From Diadema setosum (lineage: Eukaryota > Echinodermata > Echinoidea > Diadematoida > Diadematidae), in NCBI RefSeq assembly GCF_964275005.1, contig NC_092695.1, positions 10,803,697-10,867,696 of the forward strand: a stretch of 64,000 bases of DNA, given 5' to 3'. Below, piece after piece: positions 1-62,871 of this stretch. How positions within the stretch are numbered: the stretch's first letter is position 1; the number at the start of each line of letters is the position of its first letter. The translations under genes and the position numbers were made by a program. Under the pieces are notes generated by a model. That model had not been told where the DNA came from. It saw nothing but the letters and a program-made list of their open reading frames with translations, and searched no databases.

Positions 1-1041
1 TGGACAAGACTGACAAACAGAAGACAAAATAGCAGACAAAAACGCACAACGGAGACAGCGATCTTCGGCAGAAGCATGCCAAGAGAAACAGATGATAGTT
101 GTGGGGGAAAAAGTAATATTTTAACGCCTGAAAAAAAGACAAGGAAATAGAGTCTTGAAAGTTAGTCTTGAAAGAAAACGTAAAATATGACAAGCATAAC
201 AGTGAAAATCAATTGGTCAAAATGGGATTACAGGTAAGGAAGTGGTGAAATTTTGTTATTCGAAGTTAATTTTCGAAAAAAATCGTTAATTTTTGGAAAA
301 CGGTTCTTAGTCAGTATATGACAAATGCCGAAGCCTCACAATTTCGTGTTTGTGTGAGAAAATAACCCAAATTTAAGTAATCTTTTGTAAAAGTGAAAAT
401 CATAATGCTTTTCCTGGACGAAAAATATCAAAGTAATGATCAGTCAGATAAATGACTGTCAAGAACTATTTCGTGAAAATAAGCGGACCATCACAATTTC
501 ATAACTTCCTTAATTTTCATCCAATTTAGATCAAATTTTCGTTGTTCCACTTAGAACACTACTTTTTTTTTCAGACATCCCGTTCAACTGATGTGGAATT
601 TCATTATTAGTGATCAGGAAGAGAAGGACGTAGAAAATAGGGAGTGACATGGAGATTTCAGTTCAGTTCATTTTTTTTCCATGATACAAAAACCCAAAAG
701 GTATTATAGTATTCAGACAGAGAAAAAAATTCATAACATTAAGTGGATGTAAACGAAGACATGCATGAAGACATAAAATTAATTTAATTACATGTAAATC
801 AAATGTTCCTTTTACAGGTAGATAGAATACAAAATTGCTTAATTTCATGACTTTTTGTAAAAAATATTGTACTTAATTTCTCTTGCATTTCTATTATAAA
901 AAGATTGCAATTACAAATCAGAACTTGGTGCAGGAACTTTCAAGAAAAGAAAAGTTGTTTGATTGGATGACCGCCATTACAAAATGCATTCATAACAGGT
1001 TAATCAACGTAAAAAAAAAATCATGGAAATCAAGAACTCAC
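1..1041 (-). other. Copy A intron 9 (partial)
   Basis: No gene seen. From about 150 onward the sequence is closely similar to copy B intron 9 (about 24,690-25,550), so both come from one duplication. In B the tail exon lies some 250 bases beyond the equivalent of position 160, which puts the missing exon of copy A just outside the window. Confidence 0.7.
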
Positions 1042-11814
<10,773 letters not shown>

Positions 11815-20000: not shown

Positions 20001-20803
20001 CACAATTCAGATCAGGAGGTCGATAGATTAAACCTATAATAACATTTTTAGAGATTGGGTTCTCAATTTCAATAAATAACGTTTCTGCATATCTTAACGT
20101 GATTTCAGAACGGATTTTGAACTGTAAATTTTGCGCAATATAAAACGCAACACCGCCACCCCTTTTTCCTTGACGATCAGCCCTAACTAATTTATGATTG
20201 GGTAAATTAAAGATATCTGGGGAGTTTTGATGTAACCAAGTTTCACTTATTCCAATAACAGAAAATTCAAAATTGTTTAAAGAGTGCAAAAGATTTTCCA
20301 AATATTCAAAATTTTTATTCAAACTCCTAGAGTTTATATGAAGAAGTGAAATATTATCTGAACCATACGATACAATATCATTGAATTCAAGGGGTGTGTA
20401 ATATTTACTGTCGCGCACAGGCATAACGTCATCAGGAATATCGGGGGTATTCACATGTGACGCCATTCTGTAATACAGAAATGTAAATTACCGGAGATTT
20501 GAGAGACAACAACTGCATAGGTGCTAATGTGCATTTTGCAAGTGCATACTACTGTGCAGGTGTGTGTACAAAGTGCAAATGTGTGTGGGGTTTCAATATA
20601 CAATACAAAATTTGGTACAATTAGACCCATCTTGGTCACACTTACAATAATTACTAGTACGCAATTACAACAGATCACCAGGGGATAGCCGGACCACTCA
20701 GTATAAAGGTGTTGTGCTTTAAAACACGTACAGACAGAGAATTCAAGGACCGTGACAATTGCTCAGTTAAAATTCAGGGAGACTTTCCCGTATACAGGGG
20801 GGG
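17077..20803 (-). mobile_element. Apparently full-length non-LTR retrotransposon (jockey/CR1 group)
   Basis: Contains one long open ORF (17497-20466), about 340 bases of 5' leader and about 400 bases of 3' UTR. On the minus strand the 3' end reads AGAAATAAAAG followed by (CAAA)n at about 17,080-17,100, a polyadenylation-like signal and short tandem tail. The 5' edge is set at the G-run at 20,801-20,817 and is uncertain. No separate ORF1 is seen. The unbroken ORF argues for recent insertion. Confidence 0.85.
17497..20466 (-). CDS. LINE ORF2: endonuclease-reverse transcriptase (989 aa)
   Basis: Drives target-primed reverse transcription of the element. An apurinic-type endonuclease domain spans about residues 35-255: HINSRSL (43-49), ISETWL (73-78), RGGGVAFY (102-109), FGDFNIN (179-185) and SDHLPIF (247-253), with the usual acidic, Asn and His residues present. 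A reverse transcriptase spans about 500-800: NYRPISLL (550-557), CDLSKAFDTLDH (621-632), GVPQGSILGPLLF (678-690) and the catalytic FADD (709-712). A LINE-type C-terminal extension follows with LPYISYCNVVWG and SIRYSGPDIWNNLP. No stop or frameshift interrupts it. There is no RNase H or PHD domain. Codon use is very AT-rich. Exact clade (CR1, L2, Rex1, Daphne or jockey) needs a tree. Confidence 0.93.
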   Translation of the reverse strand: MASHVNTPDIPDDVMPVRDSKYYTPLEFNDIVSYGSDNISLLHINSRSLNKNFEYLENLLHSLNNFEFSVIGISETWLHQNSPDIFNLPNHKLVRADRQGKRGGGVAFYIAQNLQFKIRSEITLRYAETLFIEIENPISKNVIIGLIYRPPDLNCELFCDELDLYLHKIGNESKHVFIFGDFNINFSPTSDNNNSLNFMHLMYSYGFMSIINKPTRINPHSTTQIDNIFSNVYNDTIMGDILCSEVSDHLPIFSICECKVGRNKLHDKIWYYKESKRNVELLKQNLFLEEWTDIYSINNVNLAYKCFNDKLLYYYENNIPLCRIKINRNKPRNPWITKGILKSIKTRNFLYKLHIRNPTEFNLNMYKVYRNKLTKLIRLSRRLYFSDRMKKVSSNINATWKIIKEVLGKKPDSPPTDDITLNGIKINDPNMYANSFNSFFVNIGPELATKISNTSAHFTDYLFDQNQESIYLNPTSPSEIISITKSLNSSKSCGSDKISMMLLKEIVYPLAEPLSYIFNLSLSQGIFPDLLKIAKVNPVHKKDDSHEISNYRPISLLPSISKILEKIVYNRLLKFINKYDLLIPNQYGFRKNYSTDLALIQIYDKITSAFANKEHVAGIFCDLSKAFDTLDHSILLTKLSHYGIRGQARLWLKDYLTNRRQYVIFNGCESDPLLIKCGVPQGSILGPLLFLLYVNDIINTSSLLSFVLFADDTNIFYSHKDLKIINDTLNIEISKVSNWFKSNKLSLNIKKTHFIHFKLHSHNEDTLIHINIDDIPLEKKMNSKFLGVYIDESLTWNEHLHHVTTCISRNIGIISKLKSFLPCSTLFLLYNSLILPYISYCNVVWGTCGSTKINSIFKLQKKVIRICTGSHFLAHTDSLFHELKTLKVFDLNIIQVAVIMFKYIHHQLSSSFDNMFRFNTSVHSYPTRICRNFHLLNPKLLVTHKSIRYSGPDIWNNLPDNIKSCSSIYSLKASLKRYLIQLYSPNQLS

Positions 20804-24319: not shown

Positions 24320-24435
24320 TCAATTACACGTGGTGCCATCCTTGTAATCTTCGAAAGCCCGCTGCCATTCGACCATGTCGTCCTTCCAGTCATCATAACT
24401 TTCCCGCCATTCTTTCTCCTCCTGGTCAATGCTGC
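24320..24435 (-). CDS. Copy B exon 10: WAT-type tetramerisation tail and stop
   Basis: 37 codons plus TGA, acceptor CAG|GCAGC. Reads [20 protein letters not shown], then [18 protein letters not shown]. Three Trp and one Tyr each seven residues apart, then Cys six after the Tyr: the same pattern as the vertebrate acetylcholinesterase T-peptide, which forms a helix that tetramerises around proline-rich anchors. The other two frames are noise; the correct one is fixed by phase 1 from exon 9. Confidence 0.88.
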
Positions 24436-27330
24436 CTGATTATTAGAATAAAATCGTTGATAGAGTCAGTTTAGCCTTATGTTAGGTACAAATCAGGAAA
24501 ACTAAAAAAAAAGTAAATATTATCAAAAATGTTCAATGACTAAGAGGTTAAAACAGTGACGAGCTCATCCAGGATATTGCACTAAAAGTGTTGTTAAAAT
24601 GTTGGTAAAGCATCACATTATAACTTGAAGCGTGGATTGCAAGCAGGTCGAAATCTGCTTTGAGGGGAATGCCGGACCGGTTCAAAGTTAGTCTTGAAAG
24701 ATAATATAAAATATTACAAGCATAACAACGAAAATCACTTGGTCAAAATGGAATTACAGGTAAGGAAGTGGGGAAATTTTGTTATTCGAAGTTAATATTC
24801 ATTAATTTTTGGAAAACAGTTCTTAGACAGTTTATGATAAATTTCGTAGTCTCACAATTTCCTGTTCGCGTGAGAAAATAACCCAAATTTAAGTAATCTT
24901 TTATAAAAGTGAAAATCATATGCTTTTCCTAGATGAATAATTTCAAGTAATGATGAGTCAGATGGTATGACTGTCAAGGACTATTTCGTGAAAATAAGCG
25001 GACCATCACAATTTCATAACTTCCTTAATTTTCATCCAATTTGGATCAAATTTCCATTGTTTCACCTAGAACAGTTTAATTTTTTTTTTTTTCAGACTTA
25101 CCGTTCAACTGATGTGGAATTTCATTATTAGTGATTAGGAAGAGAAGGACGTAGAATATAGGGAGTGACATGGAGATGTCAGTTCAGTTCCTTTTTTCCA
25201 TGATACAAAAACTCGAAAGTAAATATAGTGTTCAGACAGAGCAAAAACACATAACATTGAGTGGATGTAAACGAAGACATGTATGTAGACATGAAAGGAA
25301 TTAATCACATGTAAATTGAATGTTAGTATTACAGGTAGAGAGAATACACAATTGCTTATTTTTATAACATTTTGGTAAAAAGTTTTGTATTTTCCCTTTC
25401 ATTTCTATCATAAAAAGATTGCAATTACAAATCAGAACATGGTGCACGAACTTTCACGAAGAGAAAAGTTGTTGATTGGATGACCGCCATTACAAAATGC
25501 ATTCAAAACAGGTTAATCAACGTAAAAAAAAAAAATCAAGGAAATCTTGGACTCACTTGTAAAGCTAATGAGAGTAGGCATATAGTGATTCCAGAAGCGA
25601 CATCCCCTCGCTCTAGCGGCTCTTCCCACTCCCATCTCAAGGGACAGCTCTTTGTGACTGAGCTCAGGGATGGTGTAGAGAGGCCAGAAATCTTCCCCGT
25701 CTCCTCGGGGAACGTCTTCACTGGGTCTACTGGGATCTCTGTTATACGGCAAAGAATCATGATTTGTAGTCATCTTAAGGGCCCCTGACATCGAAATGCA
25801 TGTTGATTTGTGTTGATTTATGATATCCTCAACATCACTTTTGCGGTGAAACGAATATGGAGAATCATTCCATATATTTTTCACAATTTTTTCTTCTATT
25901 TTTCTTCAGATTACTTGGGAACGCTCACAAAAATCCTTCCAAACCAATATTCCTCTTGTGACCTCATCTGTCAATCATTGCTAAAGTACTGATATGTTTA
26001 ACAAAAGACATTGGAATGCACCTTCCCCTCGACTCAGCATAGCTTGCATGTTTCTTCGTCATGTCTTTTGTTAGTCACATTAATATCACAAGTATTCTGA
26101 AGAAAAATAGAAGAAAAAATCGTTGAAAATAATAATATATGGAATGTTTCTAGGTATTCGTTTCATCGCAAAAGTGATGTTGAGGGTATCATAAATCAAC
26201 ACAAATCAACATGCATTAGGATTTCATGGGCCCTTTAAATATGAGTGCCGTCATTCAATCAAAGAAATTCCATATTGATCATTTATCATTAAGACCAGTT
26301 AAGTTGCTCATATTTGAAAGCCTAAGTGGATATCACCAGACTTCATCTTCATGAGTGTATGAAAATAACTATATAAATGTTATAAACGGTTCCATGACAT
26401 TTGCTGGTCCGACAATTGCTCCCATGACATTTCTTCACATTATAAAGCCAATCATAAATTCTACCCACAAACATGACCCCAACCCTAATCCTAATCCTCA
26501 TATCAAACTAAACTTAAAACCCTATCACAACCATAACCGTAACCCTAAGTCTTTGGAAAAAAAAAAAAAAAAACCTCGGAGCAATTGTTGCACGAGCAAT
26601 TTGATGTTGTGTCACCGTCGTGAATCCGCATGGATTATTGCACAACCATGCGGAGATAACTCGACCACAGAACAAAGTAGGGCGCCATGTGTTTATGTAT
26701 CTTCTTCTTCTTCATTTCTTTTGTCGAATCCTTGCGGTTCTTGTGACATGATGGTTCATTACTTTCTGTCCATAACGTCTCGAAGATCCTTTACCTTAAG
26801 TCATGTGTCCTCCTTTATATGTCTCGGCTGCATGGTCTCCCTCTTCCTCTCTGCTCATGAGATGGTGTCCGTAGTGATAATTGGGGGACTAGTTTATCTT
26901 TTCTCCTAGAGTATTGGTCAGCCAGTTCCAGCCTTCGCAGTCTTATCTCATCAAAGACTGGGTAAATTCCTATAGTCTGATAGTTCTGTATTGCTTATTT
27001 TGTGATGATCTCCATCTACCTTAACATTGGGGGCCGATCTGAGTAGTTGGATGCAACAACAGTTACTTTCCAATTTCCTGGCTTCTTTGTTGGTGACTGT
27101 CCAAGCTTCGCACCCGCAGAATAGTATTCATTCCAAAATTAATACTGTCATTATCCTCTCCTTACTCATTCTGGACTTCCACACAGACTGATACCCATGA
27201 ATCATACATCCCACGAGTCATACAGCCCACGAATTTGACACTAGACAAATAAAGCCCATAGGTTCGATGTCAAGTCTGATTTCCGTCAGGTCATAGATAA
27301 AGCTTCTTTCTTAATGTGTACATACAGTTA

Positions 27331-27368
<38 letters not shown>

Positions 27369-30300
27369 AGTAACATAATGAGCATATTTAATTTTGACAA
27401 TTATTATGTCGTAGGGTGTCTCAGGATGATATATATATACATATGAATTACACATGTATACATACACATACGTAATATACATGTTGATATGGTATATGAA
27501 AGACAGGTTGACGATGGAGAAATCCACTCCTAAATTCAAGAAAAGGCACTTGTTATCTAGGGCCACTTTGACCTGCCTCCATCTGTTTCTGTCTCAAATT
27601 CTTGGAGTACTTTTAGTGATACTAATCCCCCTATTCTTAGGATGGCCATCTTAACGACTGTGCGTAGATAATTACAGCATTGGTCCAACTGGTGCGGTTC
27701 TACTTGAATAGATTTCTTCATGAATTCTAGCACAACAACACCTGCCACTCGGTGACACCTGAGACACTGGGACGTGGTCATTTGATTAAACTCTCTCTAG
27801 GAAGCCAAACTTTTCATTCCGCATCTTTATGACCACTACAGTTTAATGATTACAAATTATGATAGGAGGCACATGTGTACTATTGATTTAGAGTAACTCA
27901 GAAATTCCAATTTCTACAACTAACTCCCCTAAGGGTCCAGTTTACCTTTGGGAGCATTGATTTGAAAAATATTCAAGATATCGCCTTTCGTGCATATCAC
28001 GTGTAGGTCTGTTGTCCCGCAAAACATCCTGCCATGTAAAATTTTTGCAGTAAAGTCTAAAATTTAAAGAGATATCAGTATGTATGTAGGCCGTAACTGT
28101 AGACGGTTTAGTCCAGAAACATGTTTATCATAACGATTGTTCACAGTTTGTATATCTAACAATACTTTACATTGATTTTACATATTCAAATTTTCACAGT
28201 GGTTGTTTTAATACCTAACTCACATTTTAGAAGTATTTTCAAGCACTAATGCTGAGTTTTTGTTTCATTTGCAAATGGTAAATCATGCCTTTAAGAGCCT
28301 TAGTCACTGGAGGAGGCTTCGAAGCGATTGCTGCGACTGAAAAGAGTAACAAAATGGTTTTCCCTCTTAGACACCTCCATGCTGATTAAAGAGAAATCGC
28401 CAAACGAGATGATGACTGATTCGCCTAGAAGTTATACTGTGACGTCCCCGTAACGTCATCGGATAGCTACGTTTCCGAGATATCTTGTCAGGAGCGGAGA
28501 CGTCTCCGAGTCAATTTCGATATCGATGAAAGTAAAAATAAAATAATTATAACTGATTCGATTCTTTCGCGACTCAATCGAGATCAGACTAGTTCCGAAA
28601 TATGAGTACAATCATAGGTTGGCATTTTTATAGTCTCAAGCCAATTAGATACCCACTTTAGCCTATTTCTCCCTACCCCTTGAGTTAAGACTACTTCAAA
28701 AGTCATCATCAAGTGCTCAATGTAACGAGCCGGGCTGATCAGAGTTTGCCATCAGCATGCACCAGAACTTATTTGTCCCAACCGTATAACAGCAGACACA
28801 TAGCGCGCATAAAAATGATAGTAAAAAGTTATAATTTTTTATTGATTTATTATATGTAAAATAATTATATTATAAAGATAAAGGCGTAAATATTCATATT
28901 TGAATGACGCGCCTCAAATACAAAAACAACAACAACAACAACAACAACAACATCACTCGCAATTTTTGTGTGTATTATCTTACTCATCTGCATACGAAGA
29001 TAAACAAAATGCAAATTTTATCGAAATAATACATTGAGAAAATATCAACTTGAAGACATATGAACGATAGCTTACCCTGATTTTGCAAAGTTTGTCCAGA
29101 ATTCCATGAATTTCACGGAGAGGGCGTTTTCTTCGGCGGTCATGTTGTGTGCCTTGATGTTGTACAGCTCGTCAATAAAGGGCATCCCAAAGACAAATGT
29201 CAGGTCTTCTGCATGGCCAGCACCAAGCCACGGAGTAGAAGGGTAGACATCTCCAACTTGAAAAATGCTCCTAGCAAAAAACAGAACAGGTTGATACATT
29301 TCACTGGATTTAAAGAGTGACTAGCATTGACTGCAATTAATAAAATGTCAAAAACGGCAGATGATCGTCGCCAATTTACATTCTTATTATGTTGACATTT
29401 TTAAGAAAAATTAGTGGTATTACGTTATCATAGGAAAGTTTCTGTAAAATACGTGAATATTTCAAGTTCCATTACCATTATACACGTTACGAAACGACAA
29501 CTTCGTCTTAATCGATGTGGCATAACTTTAATTATTGACTTCTCTGTGAAGGAGTCATCTGCTGAGTCACCGATGCATGAGTGAACACACATTACAGAAA
29601 AAAGTCATTTTTCAAAACTAACACCAGTCTTGTTAAGGGTCTGTGAAACATCCTGTTTCTATGAATGTATAAGTGCCGTTGTTCTTTTATCATCCATTGT
29701 TTGACCACATATGCAATATTGGCAGTACTTTTTTTGCATTGTATAGTATGATCACTCAATTGCGCTACAACACGACGACTCCCTCTTGCGTTTACAATAC
29801 ACTCACAATATCGGCTATCACTTTTCAGTAAACTGAATTGGTTTTTTGCAGTCACGAAGGATTTAACACGGTCAATTTTCCCTAAAATTGTGCCAACTTT
29901 AAACAATACAAACACACGAAAGTTCCAAGAGGTGTGAGGGGGTTAAAGGATTGGTGATGAAACAGCAACAGCACTTGAACATGTACCAAAAATAGAATGT
30001 TTCACAGACCGAAGCCCCCATCCCGCCAAAAAAGATTGTTACTCGTATCTGACTTGACATGTCATTGCCACTATACTTGACATGTCATTGCCACTATCAC
30101 ACAGAAGTTAGGAAAAGATGTAGAAATACCCCTCTTAGATTATCTTGCTCAAATCCCATTCATTCGAAATTTACGTCATATATATTAAGAGGGGAGTTAC
30201 ATTTTTTGCTGTATGTATCATATTATTCAATAGCACATATCATTCTAATCCTATGCCATAAAAAGTGTAAAAGGAGGGTACAATGTAAACACACACACAC

Positions 30301-30822
30301 ACACACACAAAATCAGTCTATACGTTTTGACAAGAAAAGCGTGAACTAGACTGCGTACTTTGTTGGCTCGTGGGTCATGAAATATTTGTATACCACCCCC
30401 CCGGCGTTTGCGTGCTCCCTGATTACGTAATCTGTTGGGGCAGCAAAATCGATGTCGGTTCCAAGATCAACGAGGGATAGAAAGTAGTCCGCGTCCGGGT
30501 CATCTGCGATGGTCCAGTCAATGTACTCCTGGTTGATGGAATCCCCGAGGATATCATCGGTAAACCCGAAACTCTTGAAATAGTTCAAGAAGGAGTCGAA
30601 GGTCGTGCGATTGACCACAGGTGGAGTGGGGCTGCCGACATACTCTTGTAGAAAGAGGAACGGAACGAAAGTCCCCTCGTCCTTGTTGAACCCCGCGAGT
30701 AGCGGTACTCTCGCAAAGTCTCCTATCTCGTAAAGGTTCGTTGGGGTGTCTGCCAGAAATGTACCGTCAAGAGTAACTGGATAACCCCCGTCGAGATTAT
30801 ACAACTATTAAGAAGTTGAGAG

Positions 30823-30854
<32 letters not shown>

Positions 30855-33800
30855 ATACAATAATGTAATTGTGACACATTGTAATATGCTTTCAGGGAAC
30901 ACATATTTCTAATTCCACATTTTAAGGCAAAATCGTCATATTGGACAGCATAATCATGCCCAATTAGAATTGACGGCAAGCTTGCAATGTTACCACACAG
31001 CAGTGTTTCTACTTTTTCTTTAATTTCTTTCCCGTTCATCCAGTTATCTTTAATAAAGAAAAATGTATCTCTTTTGATTTATACAGTATCAAAATACATA
31101 TTGTTTTGCGTTTTTGCCCATAGGACAGATGTCCATGCTTTTTAATGCCTAGAAATTTAGATATCTCGCAAGTGATTGACAAATTTCCTTACATCGACGG
31201 AAATAATCGTCTTACGATATAAAATGTACGAACGTCAATGTAAGGCATTAGTTTGGTCAGTCAGTTGAAATAAATACATCTCTACGGAAGAATTTCATGA
31301 ATTTGAATTGATATATCATTCCTTACGTTCATAAGGGAAATAATCAATGGTAATACTTTGTGGCAACTCGACACATCTATTTGTAGTTTGAAAATGCGTA
31401 ACATGATTCCCTGTAATAGCATATAATATTATGTTGAAAGATATGTTACTTAAACTATAATCAAATATTATTTTTCAATTCTTAATTCAGTACATTGATT
31501 AATTACCTTATATTCATGCACGCATTGGACAACAAAATGGTGGTAGGAATATCATCAGCGAATGAAATGAACGACAGGGGCATTAACAATGTCTTAATGA
31601 TGTATAGGACAGTATGACCGATTTTATAATCCATGAAGGAAAACATTATGGTCGATAGTATCGTAGGCTTTATATTATTAACGTCCAAGAGTAAAACAAT
31701 TCATCTTTTTGGAAGAAAGGTTTATGATATCAAATCGTAGTTTCCTGGGGAAAATTTGCAGATTTTTTTCTTTTCCTGAAGCCAAATTCTGTCTAATGAC
31801 AGAAAAACAAAATCCGATTTTAGAATTCCTTTTTCCCCCAAAAAAAATATTCAAATAATGCATGTGGCTAAAGAGAACCGGGACTCTGATTTGCAGCTTG
31901 GGTACGATCAATCGTTTCATAAAACTAGAATTTTGTATGCTAATTTTGATACACTGAGATATTATCCAGTACGGAATGGTAATATAAAAGATACGTTCTA
32001 GTGATGAAACTATAATGACATCTTATTAGTTTCAAAAGTTAGTACGTTTGCCATCATGATCTATTATCCGGTACGTATAGCTACCTTCTTTTTTTGTTCT
32101 AACGCTTTGAGTACTTATTTTACGTTGGTCTGTTGCCATCTCATTTTCCTGGGGGTAAGAATGTGATTACTGCAGTAATGTGATTTTTAAGAATTTGTAA
32201 TGGCTGTTCTTTTTTTTTTTTAATCAATTACCATCTGCTCCACAGTAGCATTTGTTGTTTTTTTAACCATACTTTACCTCATTGGCCTTCGTCCTGAGTT
32301 CGTCAGCTTCTTGGAGTTTGAGGCAGGCAACCAAAACTTCGGAGGTGGACGTATCGCACCCGAAGGCGACCCCCAACTCTCGGGACAGCCTCCTTTCCCT
32401 CTCTGGATCGTGCTTAAAGGTCCTACCTTTGAAAGCACTACCGCTCTGTTTCAGTGATAAATGTACAAATGAACAAATCAAAATTAAATAAGATACATAA
32501 ATTATGTTAAGTCAAAGGGATTTAATCTGACGTCGTCTCTAATTAACATTTTTCAAGTGGAACAGGAGCTGCAACTTTGATTCTGCTGATACAAAATGTT
32601 GTTTGCATTTAACATAGGCTGTAATACTTGAACATCGTCACCAATGAAAATCTTTCATTGCACAGTACTGTCACTTTACTACGCGTGAACACATACGCTC
32701 ACATGTGGATGTGTACACATGCAATTACACTCAAACAAACATAAACACACACACATATACATTTACAGTAGATATTGCTTGTTTGAGCAAAAAACAAACA
32801 AACAATCGACTTATTTCGCCTTATTGCCTGGTACTCCTATCAACCACTTATAGTTAATGAATATTAAAGGATATGTGCTCTTTTGTGCCATAGAAATTGC
32901 TGTTCGGACTGCAGAACTCACCTGTAAGATGGCTTTATTGAAGAAACCTCGGCTGAGTTTGGAAAGGAGGTGGAAACTGACGCTCGCCGACCCGGCACTT
33001 TCCCCGAAAATGGTGATATCATCCTTGTTACCATCAAAGGCTGTAAAAAAGAAAAAAATAAGTTGATTTTTTTACGAATGATATAGTGACGCTTTGGTTG
33101 GTGCTCATGCTCACGTTTTAGAGTGATGATTTGTAGCACTGATTTAAAGTCGAAAGCTACTACATTTTCAAGTTTATTTTGTAGCATGGAGTAAAATCAG
33201 AGGAACTCTTGAGATGACATTACGTTCATTTTTCTTTCACGAAACTAACATCAGCCAGATTCTGTTTTTTTTTTTACCGAATCCGCGCTACTAAGGTAAA
33301 AATTCATAGATACAAGACACAGAATGATACATGGAGCTACTAATAATTTAAAAAGTTTACAAACATTTAAAATCCCACGTAATACACAATCAAAGTCATC
33401 ATAATAAATTACAAGTGTACGAGAATACCGGGCATATATCACCCTACATCGTTAATTATGTAAATTCTTTAAAAATTGGTTCATACGTGTCGGGGGGGGG
33501 GGGGGGGAAAGGGGTGGGGGCGATGGGGGGGGGGGGTGCTCGCCCCCTCCCACTTTTTGGCACCATACAAAGGAATACATAAGGTGTCACCACTTTGGGC
33601 CCCCACGTTTTTACCCCGAAAATGCGTAAAAGGTTTAGAAAGAAATAGAGACGTTGAAATTGAAGTGTGAGCGCGACAAGGGTTATGTTTTTTTTTTTCA
33701 CTGAAGACCCCCCTTTTTTTGTTTGTTAGTTCATGAAACCCGGAAGTTGCCCCCCCCCTCACACACACACACACACACGCACACACACCTTTTTGTAAAC

Positions 33801-33955: not shown

Positions 33956-36477
33956 CAGTATATATATATATATTCTGAAGGAAAGAGTGTAAAGTAGGTC
34001 TTCCGTAGAATTCCAATCAGTATGTCATGTACGCATGAATCAACACTATACATTCTTACAATAGACACATAATTACCGTTGTCAAAATATCAATTCCAGA
34101 TGACCCATGAGAAAGCCGATAGATACCGTAGTATTGGTATAGTTAGTTGGTTGTGATATTTTTCAATGTGCTCAATTTTACGCTTTTTCCTTATACGTCA
34201 AAGATAACTTATCAACGAAATCGACTGTCTCTTTATTGGAGTAAATTTCTTGAATCAATTCTTACCCTCGATGTTGTTGTAAATCCATTCCAGCCCAGCG
34301 ACCTGATCCAGCATACCATAGTTTCCTGGTGCCACATCGTCCTCTGGAGAAAGAAAAGGAAAGAAGGAAAGTTAGTTGCAGTGTAAGTGACGATATGGGG
34401 GATATACAAGGAGAGTAAACGGATCGGAAAATATAGCGTAATGGTGGATTCGATATACATACCTGCTAATACCCCATGCCACAGAGATTTATTCTCGTCG
34501 GTCACTCGTCGGAAGCAAGATTTGTCGCTTCCGGCCAACCACCGAGGTGTATCTAATGGCAGTCTGATGAATCCAACTTGTGTTGGTGGACCATCGGGTC
34601 AGTGGTCAGTGTCAGGCATATCGGGCGTGATCCGGTGAGGCAAGATCGTCCGGTAAAGATCACGAGCTGACACTGACTGACTTGTAGTCGACCAACACAA
34701 GTTGTATTCAACAAACTGCGATCCGATACACTTCGGTGGGTGGCCATCGGCAACAAACTTTGCTTCCGACGAGTGACCAATTGGATGAAATCCCTGTGGA
34801 ATATGGGTATTAGCCCGATCACTATAACCTGACATCAGGTAATAACATGGGCTGAATTCGCCTAGATACACACTGTATAATAAACGGTAAAGGCCATAAT
34901 TCTACAGTAACTAGAGAGAGGTACAGGTCCCTAGTTAAGGTATGTTTTCAGTGGATGCCGGCGCAAAAGTGATTTGAAGGAAATTATAATAGTACTCCTT
35001 AAACTAAACATAACTATGTTTGAGATTACATTGCTCTCTAAAGACTGAGAACGTACACAAAGCGGTTCGACAAAGGCCTAGAAAACAAAAATAGGTGGCG
35101 TACATAATACAAACTTGCATTATTGTACAAATTTGTTTCATAGGAAAATTCAATTGAAAATAAATGAGGAAATGTGCACATAAGATATATAGTTAACCCT
35201 AGCATTCTATGCTAAACACCCAAGTAAATGACAATAATCCACTCGGTATTATCGCCAAATTACGTGAAGTGCATACCTGTTGAAAATTGCGCAAAGATAT
35301 TTAAGCGGTAGTTTATCGTCACTATTATGACGTCACCAACAGTGACCAATGGGATGCCACTATAATCATACGTCATAGCCGTTCCAGCGCTGAAACCTCC
35401 CCCGTGAATCCACACCATTACAGGAGTGCCAGGTTGCTGCAAGATTAGAGAAAAGACAACAACCACAACAACAAAAAGCACAGGAATGTATAAACGCCAC
35501 TTGCCACACATTTTCACAACCAAAATGTGCATATAATTATGTATGGATAACTTCTTATCATCAACTCATCGTTTTCTTTAACCACTTACAGGAGAATCAT
35601 TCTAACTCTGTGGGGATTGCCGTATTTGCCAGAAGGAATATGTTGAAATTCAGTTGTTTTCCGTTTGATAGCGACAAAAACTGTGTATCATTTAATTCAA
35701 TGTAGAATAATGATATGCAACCCTGATATCATTGAGGAGAATAACAAGGTGTGTGTGTGTGGGGGGGGGGGGCGTGGATCAATGTCCATCTGAGCCTATT
35801 TCAAAACACAATCTTTCTCAAATTAATGGATTGCTTGCGTAGAGCTGTTTTTGTTCCATCAACTGATTGACAATTTGCCTTGAATCACTGAATACAAATA
35901 AGCACCGTATGAAGCAGTGCTTTACTAGGAGCTATACAAGGTGTGCCTAAAAAACGGTAATAGAAGTTTAAAGGTCACCTTTGTCAAGAATACATGGTTA
36001 ATACAACGTAATACAATATTTAACGTTTATTAAATGGTTATAGGTCTTCTACAATACGAAGCAACTCATCAGCTTTCATTTGACACTTTGCTTGCGTCAA
36101 CACTGTTACGGATCACTGAGCTAGGGCCCTTCAAAGCTGAAGGGAACAAAACCTACTTTTTCCATCAACGCAATAATTTGAGCAATTAGTTTCATAATAT
36201 ATGCGATTTTTTGTTGTAATACATTGTACATTTTGCTTTCATTGAATTTGTGTGACAACATACTTGTGTTATTGGAAATAAAATTGCATTTGAATTTAGA
36301 TTTTATTCAAATTCCTCCAAAGTTAGAAAGAAGAGTCTTGCTATCTCCAATCTTTGGAATGACTGCCGATAGTAAAGAAGACAAAATCCGACTTTTGCAC
36401 GAGTCGTTTCTTTCAGAAAAATACCACAAGTATTCACACAGACACACAAACACAACATACATTAATTTCGTGTGTGG

Positions 36478-36842: not shown

Positions 36843-37412
36843 ACATGATAATTCCCATAATTATCATTCGGTTATTACCCGTTGGCTAGGGGCATAGATG
36901 TTCAAGTACAAGCAGTCCTCTGACGTGACGGCGTATAAATCCTCGGACGGGTCTTGTACACAGGCCGCTGAGAACTCGGTAGCATTTCTTTCGCCTGTCC
37001 ACGAAGCCTTTGGTAGTGGGGGAGCGAATCGCTCTGGCGGCTCGGCAAAGGGCACTCCCTGTAGAAGAAATAAATATAACCATTTTTTTTTAAAATTCTC
37101 TTATCATTATACGTAGATATTGCAAAGACCACCAAAGAGATTACATGTTATCTCTATCTTATTTTCATCATACTTTTCTTATAAAAGAGAATGAATGTTT
37201 AAGAGGGACGTAGAGAAGAAAATGACCCTTGTCGGTTCATGATGACTTACCAGAAACAGGTCAACATCACGCGTCTTATTGATGAACGTGTCTTCGCTGA
37301 AGCGGACAGTCTTTCCGACGAGGATTCCCTCATTGACTGTCACTCGAATATTTTGTGCATTCACCACTTCGAGGACAGTGAAAACTGCCAGGGCAAGGTG
37401 AAGTGTCTTCAT
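24320..37412 (-). CDS. Copy B: complete cholinesterase-like carboxylesterase with T-peptide tail (601 aa)
   Basis: Ten exons: 37251-37412, 36879-37058, 35277-35436, 34266-34343, 32922-33040, 32278-32445, 30359-30804, 29076-29270, 25557-25738, 24320-24435. They total 1806 bases, all in frame, with GT-AG junctions. The product is a predicted secreted esterase: signal peptide 1-20, glycosylation sequons at Asn45 and Asn79, Cys87-Cys103 loop, HGGGF 125-129, Ser208 in GESAG, Glu332 in NKDEG, His457. The catalytic body ends near residue 563 ([13 protein letters not shown]), and exon 10 adds an aromatic tail with the Trp spacing of the acetylcholinesterase T-peptide. The length is typical for T-tailed cholinesterases (about 580-610 residues). 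The choline-site Trp of the omega loop is missing, so a true acetylcholinesterase activity is doubtful; a tetrameric non-choline esterase is my best reading. Confidence 0.93.
25557..25738 (-). CDS. Copy B exon 9
   Basis: 182 bases, [20 protein letters not shown] to [13 protein letters not shown]. Donor A|GTGAGT, phase 1. Confidence 0.91.
25775..26238. mobile_element. TTAA-flanked fold-back element, family 2 (copy B intron 8)
   Basis: Starts TTAAGGGCCCCTGACATC and ends CATGGGCCCTTTAA; arms of roughly 110 bases (CATGTTGATTTGTGTTGATT and its complement) around an AT-rich core. It has no counterpart in copy A. A decayed relative may lie at about 47,880-48,090. Confidence 0.83.
26383..26600. repeat. 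Inverted CGACAATTGCTCC ends around a telomere-like AACCCTAA-type tract
   Basis: CGACAATTGCTCC at 26410 and its complement-like GGAGCAATTGTTG at 26578 flank an imperfect C-rich tract (CCCAACCCTAATCCTAATCC and AACCATAACCGTAACCCTAA). The frame reading NPNPNPH comes from this tract and is not a gene. Confidence 0.6.
27930..28294. mobile_element. Fold-back element inserted in copy B intron 8, empty site in copy A
   Basis: Ends CTAAGGGTCC..TTTACCTTTGGGAG and an inverted match before CCTTTAAG. In copy A the two flanks are contiguous (ACTCCTTTAAGAGCC at about 1,974-1,986), so this insertion came after the gene duplication. Confidence 0.72.
28921..28952. repeat. (AAC)n microsatellite
   Basis: About ten AAC units in copy B intron 8. 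No sign of function. Confidence 0.95.
29076..29270 (-). CDS. Copy B exon 8: catalytic histidine exon
   Basis: 195 bases, [20 protein letters not shown] followed by [13 protein letters not shown], with His457. Boundaries as in copies A and C. Confidence 0.91.
30359..30804 (-). CDS. Copy B exon 7: catalytic glutamate exon
   Basis: 446 bases, [19 protein letters not shown] onward with Glu332 in [12 protein letters not shown]. The donor AA|GTACGC is shared with A and C. The residue three after the catalytic Glu, which corresponds to choline-site Phe330 of Torpedo acetylcholinesterase, is Phe here but Leu in copies A and C. Confidence 0.9.
30805..32277 (-). other. Copy B intron 6
   Basis: Starts with (GA)n at 30,818-30,854. 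An imperfect inverted repeat of about 110 bases at 31,160-31,280 resembles the one at 46,517-46,631. No gene. Confidence 0.6.
32278..32445 (-). CDS. Copy B exon 6
   Basis: 56 codons, [20 protein letters not shown] onward. The first ten residues differ from copies A and C (FKGRTF against L-x-PWAF), in a stretch otherwise almost invariant between the copies. Confidence 0.91.
32922..33040 (-). CDS. Copy B exon 5: nucleophile serine exon
   Basis: 119 bases, [20 protein letters not shown] then [20 protein letters not shown]. Acceptor TTTTTTACAG, donor GTGAGT. Confidence 0.91.
33448..33800. repeat. G-run and (CA)n low-complexity block in copy B intron 4
   Basis: Two G-runs (33,492-33,507 and 33,525-33,536), TTTTTTTTTTCACTGAAG and (CA)n at 33,760-33,788. 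Overlapping reading frames are low-complexity artefacts. Confidence 0.8.
33917..33972. repeat. (TA)n microsatellite
   Basis: Two TA runs separated by TTACAG in copy B intron 4. Confidence 0.95.
34266..34343 (-). CDS. Copy B exon 4 (78 bases)
   Basis: Reads [20 protein letters not shown] then IYNNIE; too short for an open-frame scan, identified by homology to copy A exon 4 and its splice sites. Confidence 0.89.
34465..34814. mobile_element. Large hairpin element in copy B intron 3
   Basis: Arms of about 100 bases: GCTAATACCCCATGCCACAG..CGTCGGAAGCAA on the left, TTGCTTCCGACG..GTGGAATATGGGTATTAGC on the right, with inner arms CCAACACAAGTTG pairing too. GC-richer than its host intron; no counterpart in copy A intron 3. 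Confidence 0.85.
35277..35436 (-). CDS. Copy B exon 3: HGGGF exon
   Basis: 160 bases, encoding [20 protein letters not shown] and the [15 protein letters not shown] strand. Same boundaries and phases as in copy A. The NYRLG usual in the family is NYRLN here. Confidence 0.91.
36480..36838. mobile_element. TA-tipped fold-back element in copy B intron 2
   Basis: 36,511-36,545 and 36,725-36,760 are inverted copies (GTTTGTTTGCAAAAACCGAT then AAGTCCAT). Both arms end in (TA)n tracts, and (TG)n (36,797-36,838) follows at the right. Confidence 0.82.
36879..37058 (-). CDS. Copy B exon 2
   Basis: 60 codons, one more than copy A (inside the loop [17 protein letters not shown]). The Cys87-Cys103 loop is 15 residues long between the cysteines and has no Trp, unlike the choline-binding omega loop of acetylcholinesterase. 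Confidence 0.91.
37251..37412 (-). CDS. Copy B exon 1: signal peptide
   Basis: 54 codons from ATG at 37412, leader [20 protein letters not shown], donor GTAAGT. The frame is open upstream for 27 more codons, but the hydrophobic leader and the match with copy A fix this ATG as the start. Confidence 0.9.
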
Positions 37413-46793: not shown

Positions 46794-46912
46794 TTAGTTA
46801 TTACAGGTAGCCCCTTTTTTGTAATCCTCGAACACCCGCTGCCATTCTACCATCTCCCCCTTCCAGTCGTTGTAGCTTTCCCGCCATTCTCTCTCCTCTT
46901 CCGTCATGCTGC
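46794..46912 (-). CDS. Copy C exon 10: WAT-type tail and stop
   Basis: 38 residues and TAA: SSMTEEEREWRESYNDWKGE, then MVEWQRVFEDYKKGATCNN. Same Trp/Trp/Trp/Tyr spacing and terminal Cys as copy B. The nearby plus-strand frame at 46740-46964 is its shadow. Confidence 0.88.
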
Positions 46913-49900
46913 CTGCAACATAAACAACACCAAAAGGAACATATCACAGCACCTTACCAAGTAATCATACTCGATGATATTCCAAAAATCCAGCAACATC
47001 GATGCTATAAATACTCCTCTTCCACACTACAATGACTACACAAGGAACTTTCTTATTCATACATTGTACAACCGAAAATGACAGCGTCAAGGTCGAATGG
47101 AAACTCCGAACCAAAGAAACTTAACCTTCAAAATTATAATGGTAACCAAATTATATCTATCAAAATGGAATCGTACACTCGCACGTGATTAATTAGATGT
47201 TTTCTGCAGCGATTAAAATCATACTTCTTTTTTTCAAGCCACAATTCAAACGTCAGACCAGTTCAAGAAAGTGTAGTGTATAATGATGAGATGATTTATG
47301 TCTGTCTTACTTGTAAAGATCATGAGAGAAGGTATGTAGTGATTCCAGAAGTGACATCCCCTCGCTCTAGCGGCTCTTCCCACTCCCAGCTCGAGTGATA
47401 ACTCTTTGTGACTGAGCTCAGGGATGGTGTAGAGAGGCCAGAAATCTTCCCCTTCTCCTCGGGGAACGTCCTCACTGGGTCTGCTGGGATCTCTGCGTTC
47501 AGTTATATGACAAAGAATCATTATTCGTATTCCTTTCTTTATGAGTATCAACGTGCTGTTAATAAACAGTTATTCAACCGAAATTAGAAATTAACCATGT
47601 CATTATTGAGACCGTAATGGTTAATGTCGTTTTGTTCGGAAGCTACCGTGTATTTCACTGGATTTGGTCCACTCTAATAAAAATATAAATAACAACATAC
47701 CAGAAACTTGTCAGAAATAATATCAAATCAAGACCCCACGCTTTATCGCTTCATATGCCCTGTCGATCTTTACTTGTATGTGACCGCTTGAATATTTACA
47801 TAAGTATGTGCCTATCCCAGTAATCTATCGAAATCAAAATTTCTTTTATTTTTCTTCACATTGCTTGGATACACCTAAAACAAAAACAAAAATGCTGATG
47901 ACATCATCTGTCAATGAATTTTTTCAGTACTTAATTGATTTAAATGCACTGAAATGTTAATGTTAATAATCATTTCAACACAGATACATGCCCGATACAC
48001 TCAGTCTGGTAAAACGTGCAGTCCAGTGTTTTGTGTTCTTTATTTCAGTACTTTAAGCAATGATTGACAGATGATGTCGATGCCAGAACTTTGAATGAAA
48101 AAGAAATATTTTTGTTGCTGTTGTTGTTGTGTGTATGTCTCTCTGCCTGTGGACGTATCCGAGTAATCTAGAATGAAAAGGTAGAAATATTACCATTGCC
48201 ATAAGATATTTAACACGTATTTACATGTGTAGCTATTCCTTTGACCACATAAGCAATGATGAGTGTATCATAAATCACAAGTCATAAGTAAGCAAACATT
48301 TGCATTATATAGTTTCCTTTCGACGTGCTGACTTAATAAAGAAATCCACTTCAAAATTACAACAAAATGGCACTTATAAGCTGTGAGCACTTGGACTTGG
48401 CTCCATATCCTTTTCTTCCTGAAATTAATCCTGTCGGGATCACCATCTCAACCTTAGATAATTACAGAGTTAACAAGCGGCGTGGCTCTTCTTGAAGCTC
48501 CATTTGCGCTCTCATTTTAGACTAAGCATATAGAAAAATTCTAAAACAAACTCTCTAGGCCTACTGCTCATCTTAACCTATACCCTGTTGAGAGAAAGAA
48601 AATGTAGTGCACAAAGCATCATTATTTGCAATCGATGGGTGTGAGTAATTGTTTTAATTATCTAGTTACTATTTTAATGTGAAATGGGAGTTGTAAACAA
48701 AAGCTTACCCTGACTTTGCAAAGTTCGTCCAGAATTCCATGAACTTAAAGGAGAGGGTCTTTTCTTCTGCGGTCATATTGTATGCCTTGATGTTGTACAG
48801 CTCGTCAATGAAGGGCATCCCGAAAACAAAAGTCAGGTCTTCTCCATGGCCCGCTCTACGCCACGGGGTAGAGGGCACGATGTCTCCATACTGATAAAAG
48901 CTCCTGGCAATGAACATTGTCATGAACAGATGAAACAAATTGATACATTTCTCTGGATCCAAGGAATAATTCGCAATGATTTCAATCATTGATCAAAATA
49001 AAAAGAAATGGCAAAAAAAGTTAACAGTCATCATTTTACATAGTGATGATTACTTACATCAATCACGAAAAAAAAATAAGTATTTAATATCATGGTAAAT
49101 AACATTAGAAAAGTGTCTTCAAAATATGTGAGTACTTGAAGTACTCTTCCCATTTTTATGTAAGGTTCCACTCGATCTTTTTTCTGATCTTATTCTTTCT
49201 ACAATATTAAACGGAGATAATATACTGCGCCTACACACACACGTACACAAACGCATGTAACTTAGTTTACACGTTATAACAAGAGAAGTATAACATGAAC
49301 CAAATTGCGTACTGTGATGGCTCGTGGGTCATGAAATACTTGTACACCGTCCCTCCGGCGTTTGCGTGTTTCCTGATTACGTAATCAGTCGGGGCGGCAT
49401 AATAAAAGTCTGTTCCCAGGTCAACCAAAGATTGAAAGTAGTCCGCATCCGGGTAATCTGCGATGGTCCAGTCAATGTACTCCTGGTTGATGGAATCCTC
49501 TAGGATATCATCGTTTAACCCATAACTCCTGAAAAAGTTGACCATTACGTCGAATGTTGCGCGATCGACCACAGGCGGTGTGGAGGTGCCAATATAGTCT
49601 TGAAAAAAGAGGATCGGAAACAAAGTTCCCTCGTCCTTGGTAACTCCAGCGAGTAGGGGTACCTTCGCAAAGTCTCCTATCTCGTAAAGGTTCGCAGGGG
49701 TGTCTTCAAGAAATGTACCGTCAAGAGTAACCAGGTAAGCTTCGCCGATATTATACAACTGTCAATAAAGAAAGAGATAGGGACGGTAGAGACGGAGATA
49801 CAGAGAGAGAGAAAAAAATACTTATATAATATTTACTGGCCTCGAGGGAGATACCAGAAAATATTGCCCAAACTGAAAAAATATTGCCCGAGTCGAAGAG

Positions 49901-55900: not shown

Positions 55901-56256
55901 AACACGCGCATGTTGTCTGCAAGCAGGGGCTCCTGTTATTACGCATCAAGCCATCCGACATCATGACGCCACTCTTTACAGACAGGACGGGATACACTTA
56001 TCCGATGTTGGCATAGCACTATTTCTAAAAGACCTCAGAAGCGGGATAGCCGACATGATAATTGATATGATAATAATTAATAATTGATATGATTTATATA
56101 GCGCCAAATCCACTCTGCAGAGTGCTCTAGGCGCGGAAGGAAGAGAAAGTGAAGGAGACAAAGACATACAAATATCAAATACATGTAACGAGTAATCAAA
56201 TTGAGGCTTTAAACAAGTGAGTTTTTAGACTGCTTTTAAAAGGGTCTGATGAAGAA

Positions 56257-62200: not shown

Positions 62201-62871
62201 GTATTAATTCTTTTCGATATCATAAACTTAAAGGAAGGACGAACATGTATTTAATGTGATTTTGACTTGAAATAAATAACATTTACTGGTGATTGAGTTG
62301 TAAAAATAAAAATTTGCTTAAACGTAACGTTACTAACCGCGGAATTGCCTAAACAAGTAAAAAAAAAGTTGAAATGATCATGTTCTACTGGTGAAACCAT
62401 AGGACAAGTCATTTGCTTTAAACATTTATCACCTTGTATAAACAGCTAGTTGCTTTTTCGGATTTTGAGATTCTAAAAAAATTTACCTATTTTAAATATT
62501 TTCATGTTTGTTTGTTGGTGTTTTATTCTATTTGGGATGAGACCGTGATTACGACTGCGAAGTTCTTTTTTAAACGATATCTATAAGTTGGTTTTTCTGT
62601 TTAGATTACATACTTTTTGTACTATAATAGGTATATTCTTAGTTATTTATTTATCTTTTTATAATTATATATACTTAAAATATATGTATTAATTGTAACT
62701 TACCTCATTACCTTTCGCCCTCAGTTCGTCGGCATCCTGGAGTTTTAGGCAGGCAACCAAAACTTCGGAAGTGGACGTATCGCACCCGAAGGCGACCCCC
62801 AACTCTCGGGATAGCCTCCTTTCTCTCTCTGGATCGTGCACAAAAGCCCATGGCATAAGGGCACTACCGCT
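46794..62871 (-). CDS. Copy C: cholinesterase-like carboxylesterase (exons 6-10, 5' end outside window)
   Basis: Exons 62704-62871, 49313-49758, 48709-48903, 47311-47492 and 46794-46912 have the lengths (168, 446, 195, 182, 119) and phases of copy B, and join in frame to 370 codons including TAA. Catalytic Glu (GVTKDEG), His ([13 protein letters not shown]) and the aromatic tail are present. The His block reads RRAGHGEDL instead of LGAGHAEDL, and NKDEG is TKDEG. Intron 6 is 12,945 bases, against about 1.5 kb in A and B, and is filled with transposons. The remaining exons should lie beyond 64,000. Alternatively exon 6 belongs to a fourth copy and the left part is a truncated gene; in-frame, intact splice sites favour one gene. 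Confidence 0.78.
47311..47492 (-). CDS. Copy C exon 9
   Basis: 182 bases, [20 protein letters not shown] to CHFWNHYIPSLMIFT; donor A|GTAAGA. Confidence 0.9.
47690..48120. repeat. Degenerate inverted repeat in copy C intron 8
   Basis: ATGACATCATCTGTCAATGAA at 47,898 and its inverted match CAATGATTGACAGATGATGTC at 48,058 suggest an old fold-back element of family 2. Confidence 0.5.
48709..48903 (-). CDS. Copy C exon 8: catalytic histidine exon
   Basis: 195 bases, SFYQYGDIVPSTPWRRAGHG then [13 protein letters not shown]. Catalytic His kept. Confidence 0.89.
49313..49758 (-). CDS. Copy C exon 7: catalytic glutamate exon
   Basis: 446 bases, [20 protein letters not shown] onward. Glu in GVTKDEGTLFPI. 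The donor position GTACGC is shared with the other copies. Confidence 0.88.
49834..49959. mobile_element. Small fold-back element at the start of copy C intron 6
   Basis: TACTGGCCTCGAGGGAGATA and TATTTCCCTCAAGGCCAGT ends with repeated AATATTGCCC inside; almost the whole 126 bases pair. Confidence 0.88.
49960..50401. other. Copy C intron 6, left part
   Basis: No gene or clear repeat recognised; ordinary AT-rich intron sequence. Confidence 0.5.
50735..51040. repeat. CG-alternating tracts
   Basis: CGTGCGCGTACGCGCGCG at about 50,744, ACGCGTACGCGCGCGCAC at about 50,860 and CCGCGCGCGCGTC at about 51,026 stand out in AT-rich DNA. Confidence 0.8.
51413..52696. repeat. Direct tandem duplication inside the 50402-52863 element
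   Basis: Unit 1 (51,413-52,132) and unit 2 (52,133-52,696) both begin ACGTGTTATCTCTATGGGA and end TGTATCTTCGTTAT-like. Unit 2 is shorter because unit 1 carries an inserted retrotransposon tail. Confidence 0.85.
51831..51985 (-). mobile_element. Retrotransposon 3' tail inserted in unit 1
   Basis: On the minus strand it ends GTGAAAATAAAACATATAAA then (TAAA)n. The matching position in unit 2 is an uninterrupted GGTGAATACATGTCTT, an empty site. Confidence 0.7.
53152..54090 (+). pseudogene. ORF1-like part of the Ngaro-type element
   Basis: A 233-codon frame (53152-53853) rich in Ser, Arg, Pro and Ala without a known domain is followed by a second frame (53853-54179) with STPREELGSTVPISTKEKIW and KGEFVDLGCLL. 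That block resembles a recurring 'LG..VP..(V)K.KIW.GE(F/Y)VD...LL' motif that I associate with tyrosine-recombinase retroelements of marine animals. Homology appears to stop near 54,090. Function: probably Gag-like, inferred only from position. Confidence 0.5.
54770..54792. repeat. GC hairpin
   Basis: ACCGCGCC TTGC GGCGCGGT is a perfect 8-base-stem hairpin between the ORF1-like and recombinase segments. Confidence 0.75.
54920..55141 (+). pseudogene. Tyrosine recombinase, C-terminal catalytic part
   Basis: FTSHSFRIGATTAAAVAG carries the HxxR box, and MGRWVTDTHKRYIRINLV carries the GRW-x-x-D block and the catalytic Tyr (in KRYIR). The preceding helix (RARELFKYMDVVRSAARFPG) is in another frame, so a frameshift lies at about 54,960-54,985. 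The N-terminal half is missing. The gene ends at TAG (55,139-55,141). Confidence 0.75.
55490..56087 (+). pseudogene. SGNH (GDSL-type) hydrolase of the retroelement
   Basis: In the frame 55479-56087, HVIIHAGTNDIGFF gives block III (GxND) and DGIHLSDVG gives block V (DxxH, catalytic Asp-His); GYRGLRLGQ may supply the block II Gly. Block I is broken: TILVVWD reads in one frame up to about 55,527 and SxxxAYWAGR continues in another, so the GDS serine motif is split by a one-base slip. A TTTTCTTTGTTTTGCAG tract just before it may be a splice acceptor. SGNH domains are known companions of some Ngaro and CR1 elements. Confidence 0.72.
56083..56800 (-). pseudogene. 5'-truncated LINE (L2/CR1-like), C-terminal RT part and 3' UTR
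   Basis: Two minus-strand frames together cover the end of an RT ORF: SSICRSVRYQLRNIGFIRKY and STRLDFGNSVLFNSAL (about 56,630-56,780), then RLQNAAARIITLSKKH, LHWLPVKDRIIFKMLL and TRAFSRAAPTLWNNLP (56,290-56,620). A frameshift separates them at about 56,610-56,640. A 30-base A-run (T-run at 56,258-56,287) replaces the expected ORF end. The 3' UTR has the GGATTTGGCGCTATATAAAT end typical of such LINEs. Confidence 0.8.
56890..57359. other. No feature recognised
   Basis: Between the truncated LINE and the next element; a short (AAT)n at 57,080 and AC-rich text only. Confidence 0.5.
58251..58291. repeat. (CTA)n(ATA)n microsatellite
   Basis: About eight ACT units followed by five AAT units. Confidence 0.93.
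58645..59305. mobile_element. Element nested inside 57360-59821
   Basis: TGTGACCCTGCACCACAAAA..AAAAAGTCGC at the left pairs with GCGACTTTTTGTTCGTTTTG..GTCACA at the right (about 35 bases), flanked by TA on both sides. The middle carries the (AAT)n array 58,968-59,175. Confidence 0.85.
58966..59177. repeat. (AAT)n-rich array
   Basis: Interrupted AAT/GAT array of about 210 bases. The all-Ile/Met reading frame over it is an artefact. Confidence 0.95.
59822..60827. other. GC-rich block, then AT-rich spacer, no gene recognised
   Basis: 59,822-60,480 is GC-rich like 53,150-55,700 and has open frames on both strands without a domain I recognise; probably 3' part of the Ngaro-like element. 60,480-60,827 is ordinary spacer. 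Confidence 0.45.
60828..62132 (-). mobile_element. AGGTCA-rich dispersed repeat, copy 2 (inverted to copy 1)
   Basis: Starts at the hairpin CCTCCGCCACGAAGTGGTGC-CGGAGG and ends GCCATAGCGACATTTCTAG. Includes four AGGTCA half-sites in a row with one-base spacing at about 61,054-61,080, and further pairs near 61,207, 61,360, 61,505, 61,650 and 61,795. Opposite orientation to 38,733-40,108. Confidence 0.87.
62133..62703 (-). other. Copy C intron 6, exon-6-proximal part
   Basis: AT-rich, nothing recognised. Confidence 0.5.
62704..62871 (-). CDS. Copy C exon 6
   Basis: 56 codons, [20 protein letters not shown] to ADELRAKGNE, acceptor TTAAACAG, donor GTAAGT. Nearly the same as in copies A and B. 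Confidence 0.88.

Follow-up and report, generated by a model that had tools for sequence, protein, structure and literature searches.

Does the last exon of a carboxylesterase gene in an echinoderm encode the T-peptide of acetylcholinesterase (AChE) and butyrylcholinesterase (BChE), and what would such a tail do there? The question is raised by positions 24320..24435 of the window, by which we mean the whole stretch of 64,000 nucleotides that was analysed. In the same genome, COX1 (contig C102, 15,708 bp) stays open when TGA is read as Trp, and AAA as Asn suits conserved Asn positions, in keeping with the echinoderm code (code 9 rather than 5, in our judgement); we take the animal to be a sea urchin. 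In vertebrates the T-peptide has its own last exon and is known mainly for placing AChE at synapses and keeping BChE tetrameric, and a T-like tail is also carried by ACE-1 of C. elegans. According to parts of two papers, the vertebrate enzymes use a WAT-polyproline mechanism, in which ColQ and PRiMA anchor AChE, and lamellipodin and other peptides serve soluble BChE (PMC8518539, PMC5943944). The H-peptide C-terminus is described in part of another paper as widespread in invertebrate AChEs (PMC3045457), a prevalence that makes a T-type tail unexpected here. A search of titles and abstract openings, with most subscription journals outside its scope, found no paper on T-peptides of non-cholinergic or echinoderm esterases, which does not by itself show novelty.

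Three tandem esterase genes lie on the minus strand of the window: A, which starts at about 11814 and runs past position 1 of the window; B, at 37412-24320; and C, which starts outside the window and ends at 46794. Gene models were built from homology and splice sites, using DNA only. The model of B is intact, its ten exons giving a 601-aa protein, with GT-AG introns that are consistent in phase and in a few cases weak in consensus. The start codon and a signal-peptide-like leader, judged by eye, are in exon 1 (37251..37412), which is followed by exon 2 (36879..37058), exon 3 with the oxyanion-hole HGGGF (35277..35436), exon 4 (34266..34343), exon 5 with the nucleophile Ser in GESAG (32922..33040), exon 6 (32278..32445), exon 7 with the catalytic Glu in NKDEGT (30359..30804), exon 8 with the catalytic His in GAGHAED (29076..29270) and exon 9 with the end of the catalytic domain and a phase-1 donor (25557..25738). 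All are on the minus strand and come from the gene model, the four catalytic motifs being located by alignment as well.

For A and C, the exon limits are those of tblastn matches, again on the minus strand. Gene A starts, with its leader, in exon 1 (11653..11814) and continues through exons 2 (11233..11409), 3 (9672..9830), 4 (7212..7289), 5 with GESAG (6297..6416), 6 (5675..5842), 7 (3722..4168), 8 (2725..2922) and 9 (1040..1222) to a tail exon just below window position 1 (C11:10802853-10802969), which was found by the tail search of the genome. Within the window, gene C has exons 6 (62704..62871), 7 (49312..49758), 8 (48708..48905) and 9 (47309..47491), and its exons 1-5 are outside the window, in L003. 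There, exon 5 of C (L003:1891-2010) has GQSAG rather than GESAG around the nucleophile Ser, and exon 3 (L003:4070-4228) has GGGV rather than GGGF at the oxyanion hole.

The tail exon of B (24320..24435, minus, ending in TGA; located by translation, profile and alignment) and that of C (46794..46912, minus, ending in TAA; located by translation) lie exactly where an earlier note on this DNA had put them. Translation of both last exons gives W-x6-W-x6-W-x6-Y-x5-C, as the note had read it, directly after the catalytic-domain end (...FWNHYIPSLMIFT in C) across a GT-AG phase-1 intron. Its statement that the tail has an exon of its own, the last one, is borne out from DNA by the B model, by a scan of 30 loci and by all 35 pairings with exon 9 described below. 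Conservation in two copies, as it was put there, is right for B and C but too narrow, as A is tailed too.

Relationship of the tail to the T-peptide

The profile of the tetramerisation domain (AChE_tetra, PF08674) has a curated cut-off of 25 bits. Scored alone, the tail of B reached 23.8 bits (E 3.7e-5) and that of C 24.4 bits (E 2.3e-5), so the profile check suggested for B gave a match, but one just under the cut-off, as it was for C. Over the cut-off were one C14 paralogue (26.8 bits) and AChE1 of the same genome (44.8 bits), and within the full-length B protein the score was only 16 bits (E 0.01). At E<=1e-3 the profile matched 21 of the 24 tails scanned, which were our choice from 31 in hand, AChE1 included. 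A first search of the genome with PF08674 at E<=0.001 returned AChE1 alone and, taken by itself, misses the family.

Alignments extend the match. B was aligned by phmmer over residues 49-600 with Torpedo AChE (6euc) at 309.9 bits, with zero gaps from FWN to the final Cys (Cys600). When ten family tails were compared by hhalign with four AChE tails, two from vertebrates and two from this genome, the probability was 96.6 and the E-value 5.1e-10. In AChE1, on C22, DNA and frames read by eye place the tail likewise behind a phase-1 intron after an FWxxxxP stretch, and the intron before the family tails has the position and phase of the AChE1 intron.

Six positions (three Trp, a Phe, a Tyr and a Cys) are invariant in 24 aligned tails. 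Some tails, AChE1 and AChE2 included, have one more residue separating the second Trp from the third, and some C14 tails share the resulting W-x6-W-x7-W with AChE1 and AChE2, bridging the two groups. The hydrophobic moment of the tail is 0.54 in B, 0.52 in C and 0.48 in D, with shuffles at about 0.19 and fractions of shuffles reaching the observed value of 0.0006, 0.0014 and 0.0018, respectively. By the same measure the human AChE tail has 0.45 (fraction 0.0052), and the less amphipathic AChE1 tail has 0.33 (0.0738). Thus, the amphipathic character of the B, C and D tails equals or exceeds that of the vertebrate model.

That the tail is of the vertebrate AChE/BChE T-peptide type, as the earlier note had held from the spacing, is upheld by the PF08674 match, the Torpedo AChE alignment without gaps, hhalign and the common intron position and phase. 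From these we conclude that the tail is homologous to the T-peptide (WAT domain) of AChE and BChE, beyond a mere likeness of spacing. An unrelated amphipathic helix could also have come upon heptad-spaced aromatics by convergence, and the shortness of the tail and the scores of B and C just under the Pfam cut-off leave some room for this. We find it hardly credible, given the hhalign profile-profile E-value, the ungapped alignment combined with a matching intron position and phase, and the C14 tails that link the two groups.

With homology preferred, the tails can be set beside their relatives. They resemble the vertebrate AChE-T/BChE T-peptide in the spacing W-x6-W-x6-W-x6-Y-x5-C after FWNxxxP, in being amphipathic and in having their own last exon. 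They differ from it in being more acidic, in matching human AChE at 7-10 of 28 core residues (B, C and D), and in sitting on enzymes without the choline site, at 34 or more loci outside AChE genes. AChE1 and AChE2 on C22 both have the tail, behind a phase-1 intron in AChE1, but unlike A-D they keep Trp84 and encode the bulk of the catalytic domain in a single exon; the tails differ from that of B in W-x6-W-x7-W and a longer end. These two AChE-like genes were located at C22:6164458-6167647 and C22:22169813-22176438.

Distribution of the tail and the enzymes that carry it

A search of the genome (912.7 Mb) with the 39-aa tail of B gave at least 35 matches at E<=10, the best at 1.0e-20. Among the matches listed, 19 are on C14, 14 on C11, one on C20 and one on C22; 13 of the 14 listed on C11 fall in a tandem cluster at 10.74-11.00 Mb. 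No stop codon lies inside the matched range in any of the 35 listed tails, and the C14 tails are 33-67% identical to that of B. A separate search with exon 9 gave 44 matches in the genome. Each of the 35 tails could be paired with an exon-9 match of its own, on the same strand and 263-2385 bp upstream of the tail, so that even the weak ones among the tails (E up to 2.17) are probably genuine.

Nine exon-9 matches remained unpaired. Four of them (three on C14 and one on C15, with E from 1.1e-10 to 0.0056) probably belong to the family, and the genome tail searches found no tail at these four. The other five, on C4, C7, C22, C18 and C12, are weak (E 0.017-2.67), three of them with stops. Two further tail queries returned the same places and added AChE1 (C22:6164482) along with two weak hits (E about 5); these two hits we take as chance. 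The total is at least 36 tails, of which two are in AChE genes on C22 and at least 34 are on C11, C14 and C20, many of these 34 in tandem arrays. Tails were read at 30 fetched loci (L005-L034) and in AChE1 and AChE2, four C14 tails being left out.

The aromatic/Cys pattern and an in-frame phase-1 acceptor before the tail are present at 30 of 30 fetched loci, and an in-frame phase-1 GT donor is present at 28 of the 28 loci that contain exon 9, mostly just past FT codons and in some cases with weak consensus; the scan used a permissive window, in which single donors prove little. Across six close copies (L005-L010), the DNA of the tail has 90.5% identity without gaps, against 63.5% with many gaps in the adjoining upstream intron and 73.2% just downstream. 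Pooled over 210 pairs from 21 tails, pN/pS is 0.170/0.592, the pairs being non-independent and the most diverged tails being left out.

These figures bear on whether the exon is a relic, kept by recent duplication and rarely or never spliced in, so that the enzymes end at exon 9. Such a relic would be compatible with gene models that come from DNA alone and with exon 9 of B reading on for about a dozen codons to a stop. Nevertheless, we judge it very unlikely: the 35 listed tails are free of stops within the match even where, on C14, they have diverged from B, pN/pS is low, the tail is far better conserved than the adjoining intron, and the splice sites are in place at every locus scanned for acceptor (30) or donor (28). 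Of wider import is that a large family of esterases, lying outside the AChE clade, has conserved the T-peptide.

As to the enzymes themselves, B matches the type B carboxylesterase profile (PF00135) at 399.6 bits, with a cut-off of 27. Residue numbers below are those that we take to be of Torpedo AChE, the sites being located by motif. In an alignment of 12 sequences, genes A-D keep Ser200, Glu327, His440 and the oxyanion-hole GG, have gaps at Trp84, Phe288 and Phe290, and lack Tyr334; of the 34 tailed loci outside C22, these four are the ones in which Trp84 could be scored. The gap at both acyl-pocket sites, Phe288 and Phe290, extends to gene E. Trp233 is absent in B and kept in A, C and D. 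AChE1 and AChE2 keep Trp84.

In the tree, AChE1, AChE2 and the human and Torpedo AChEs form a clade (support 98/97) with A-E outside it, and A-D form a separate clade (100/99); with 12 rows and two long branches, E, CES1 and the C16 esterase are not firmly placed. Gene E (C14:22374141, 22.37 Mb; L027 and L046) was partly recovered, its Trp84 exon being missing from the model. It has Asp at the catalytic Glu site and an AChE1-like W-x6-W-x7-W tail, and it may represent a link between the two tail types.

For B, phmmer scores were 309.9 bits with the tailed AChE, 287 and below with AChE constructs that end before the tail or within its start, 258 with mammalian carboxylesterases and about 255 with an AChE that is presumably from mosquito (Anopheles type). 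The catalytic domain of B alone is therefore not much nearer to AChE than to carboxylesterases. From these comparisons, the host enzymes A-D are carboxylesterase-like and probably not cholinesterases.

The family could still consist of working cholinesterases, an amplified AChE/BChE set that helps to control acetylcholine. AChEs are the best PDB matches of B, at 309.9 bits with the tail, and cholinesterase-gene amplification in animals is already in print, to go by a title (Chatonnet 2017, J Neurochem 142:73). We think this unlikely, with Trp84, Phe288, Phe290 and Tyr334 all missing in A-D, with A-D outside the AChE clade, with the Anopheles-type AChE scoring below carboxylesterases against B, and with two separate AChE genes that keep Trp84 in the same genome. 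Amplified cholinesterase genes have reportedly been described by Chatonnet et al. in 2017 with echinoderms included.

Under the carboxylesterase-like reading, two untailed groups serve for comparison. Mammalian CES1 shares PF00135 and likewise does without the cholinesterase Trp84 or Phe288/290, but by the alignment it ends without a tail. The C16 esterase cluster, for which 11 N-terminal esterase exon matches were listed, shares PF00135 and the split-exon pattern, but no tail match was found there in three tail searches of the genome. Either the tail predates the split between AChE and the family, in which case it was lost in CES1 and on C16, or it moved; the common intron favours descent over movement. 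It thus seems that a bundling tail was retained, and increased in number, on enzymes which in all probability do not act as cholinesterases.

Elsewhere on C11 (L052, C11:35970000-35974400), two adjoining single-exon esterase-like frames have an altered nucleophile-Ser motif and probably encode esterase-like proteins without this chemistry.

Assembly and a candidate anchor

Taken jointly, we consider it quite probable that the tail is a true T-peptide, that its exon is ancestral and common with the T exon of vertebrate AChE and BChE, and that it is borne by a large, partly tandem carboxylesterase family, for which tetramers and a non-choline substrate would be expected. In such a mechanism, the tailed esterases would be secreted, and the 38-residue tail would form an amphipathic helix. 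In the secretory pathway, four tails would wrap one polyproline-II strand, and the Cys near the end could form a disulphide. The product would be a tetramer, either soluble, like serum BChE with lamellipodin peptides, or tethered. A plausible tether would be a ColQ-like collagen encoded on C24, in which polyproline exons lie ahead of the collagen exons. The substrate would be an ester other than a choline ester.

ColQ- or PRiMA-like proteins had been proposed as something to look for in the same genome, and the search turned up a candidate of the first kind and none of the second over the cut-off. A PRiMA search of the genome (PF16101) gave 84 matches, the best at E 2.3e-4 and none over the cut-off; ten of these loci, when read, were mostly polyproline or histidine runs, several with stops. 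When a hand-typed ColQ C-terminus was used as the query, it matched C24 in two adjoining stretches (51% and 52% identity, E 1.6e-6 and 7.6e-4) that share a strand and follow each other in the right order; the range of one match counts a stop. The exon next to them, NSINEEAALAYRLDDKKLYFRDDSTWNCL, runs on into a collagen stretch, and a search of the genome found this exon once.

In the 19.8 kb upstream on C24 there are five collagen exons, and polyproline occurs in one frame or another at four places. At two of the four, which precede the collagen exons, the frames were read by eye as exons, LPPPPMIPPPPP and IPPPPPPSPPLFLP; the IPPPPPPSPPLFLP frame is in phase with the collagen exon that follows it. 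Ahead of these polyproline exons is a VWC domain. The gene (C24:24674300-24693464; L053-L056) also has two Cys-rich exons, one with DUF4215 over the cut-off and the other weak. It is like ColQ in its C-terminal exons, collagen repeats and putative N-terminal polyproline, and unlike ColQ in its VWC domain, which ColQ is not known to have, and apparently in lacking a Cys pair next to the polyproline: scanning the 19.8 kb for CC followed by PP gave none, and no adjacent Cys pair was found beside polyproline. Judged from its sequence, this collagen is a candidate anchor for the tailed esterases and no more than that, polyproline being common and no such Cys pair having turned up.

Alternatively, the tail may serve for soluble oligomers, dimers or tetramers, formed through any proline-rich peptide or by helix packing, with no dedicated anchor and with stability in body fluid as the benefit. 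Part of one paper describes serum BChE tetramers that use the polyproline of lamellipodin and other proteins (PMC8518539), and the PRiMA search with none over the cut-off points the same way; the ColQ-like collagen with polyproline exons in the same genome points the other way. We regard oligomers of this kind as a serious possibility, even if not the outcome that we would expect.

Going further than the T-peptide reading that we prefer, the assembly module of AChE might have become a general scaffold, in which at least 30 diverged, non-cholinergic secreted esterases with one T-peptide code would form hetero-tetramers on the ColQ-like VWC-polyproline-collagen. We put this forward tentatively, as a rather doubtful extension. 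If true, it would give a combinatorial, matrix-bound array of esterases. A T-peptide at 34 or more non-AChE loci of one echinoderm suggests an assembly device separable from acetylcholine hydrolysis, and esterase anchoring perhaps came before the cholinergic synapse or spread beyond it. The origin of ColQ/PRiMA anchoring becomes testable outside vertebrates.

Other open frames in the window

Between exon 9 and the tail there is a 24-letter hydrophobic open frame (about 25100-25171 in B, 579-650 in A), which in B has a phase-1 donor and was first taken for a signal-peptide exon of a free secreted tail. It is 24/24 identical between A and B and 87.5% identical in L006. However, L008 and L009 have it in broken form and no such match was found in C, and it was therefore rejected as a conserved exon. 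A 248-aa frame at 53107-53850 had no match at E<=0.01 in a Pfam search.

Between genes B and A, a 996-aa open frame on the minus strand (17500-20487) matches an endonuclease (PF03372) and a reverse transcriptase (PF00078), and is a long non-LTR retrotransposon ORF. On the plus strand, a frame of 204 aa at 55473-56084 contains a GDSL/SGNH hydrolase domain (PF13472, 38.1 bits); it lies in gene C, within the long intron that separates exons 6 and 7, and is perhaps part of a mobile element.
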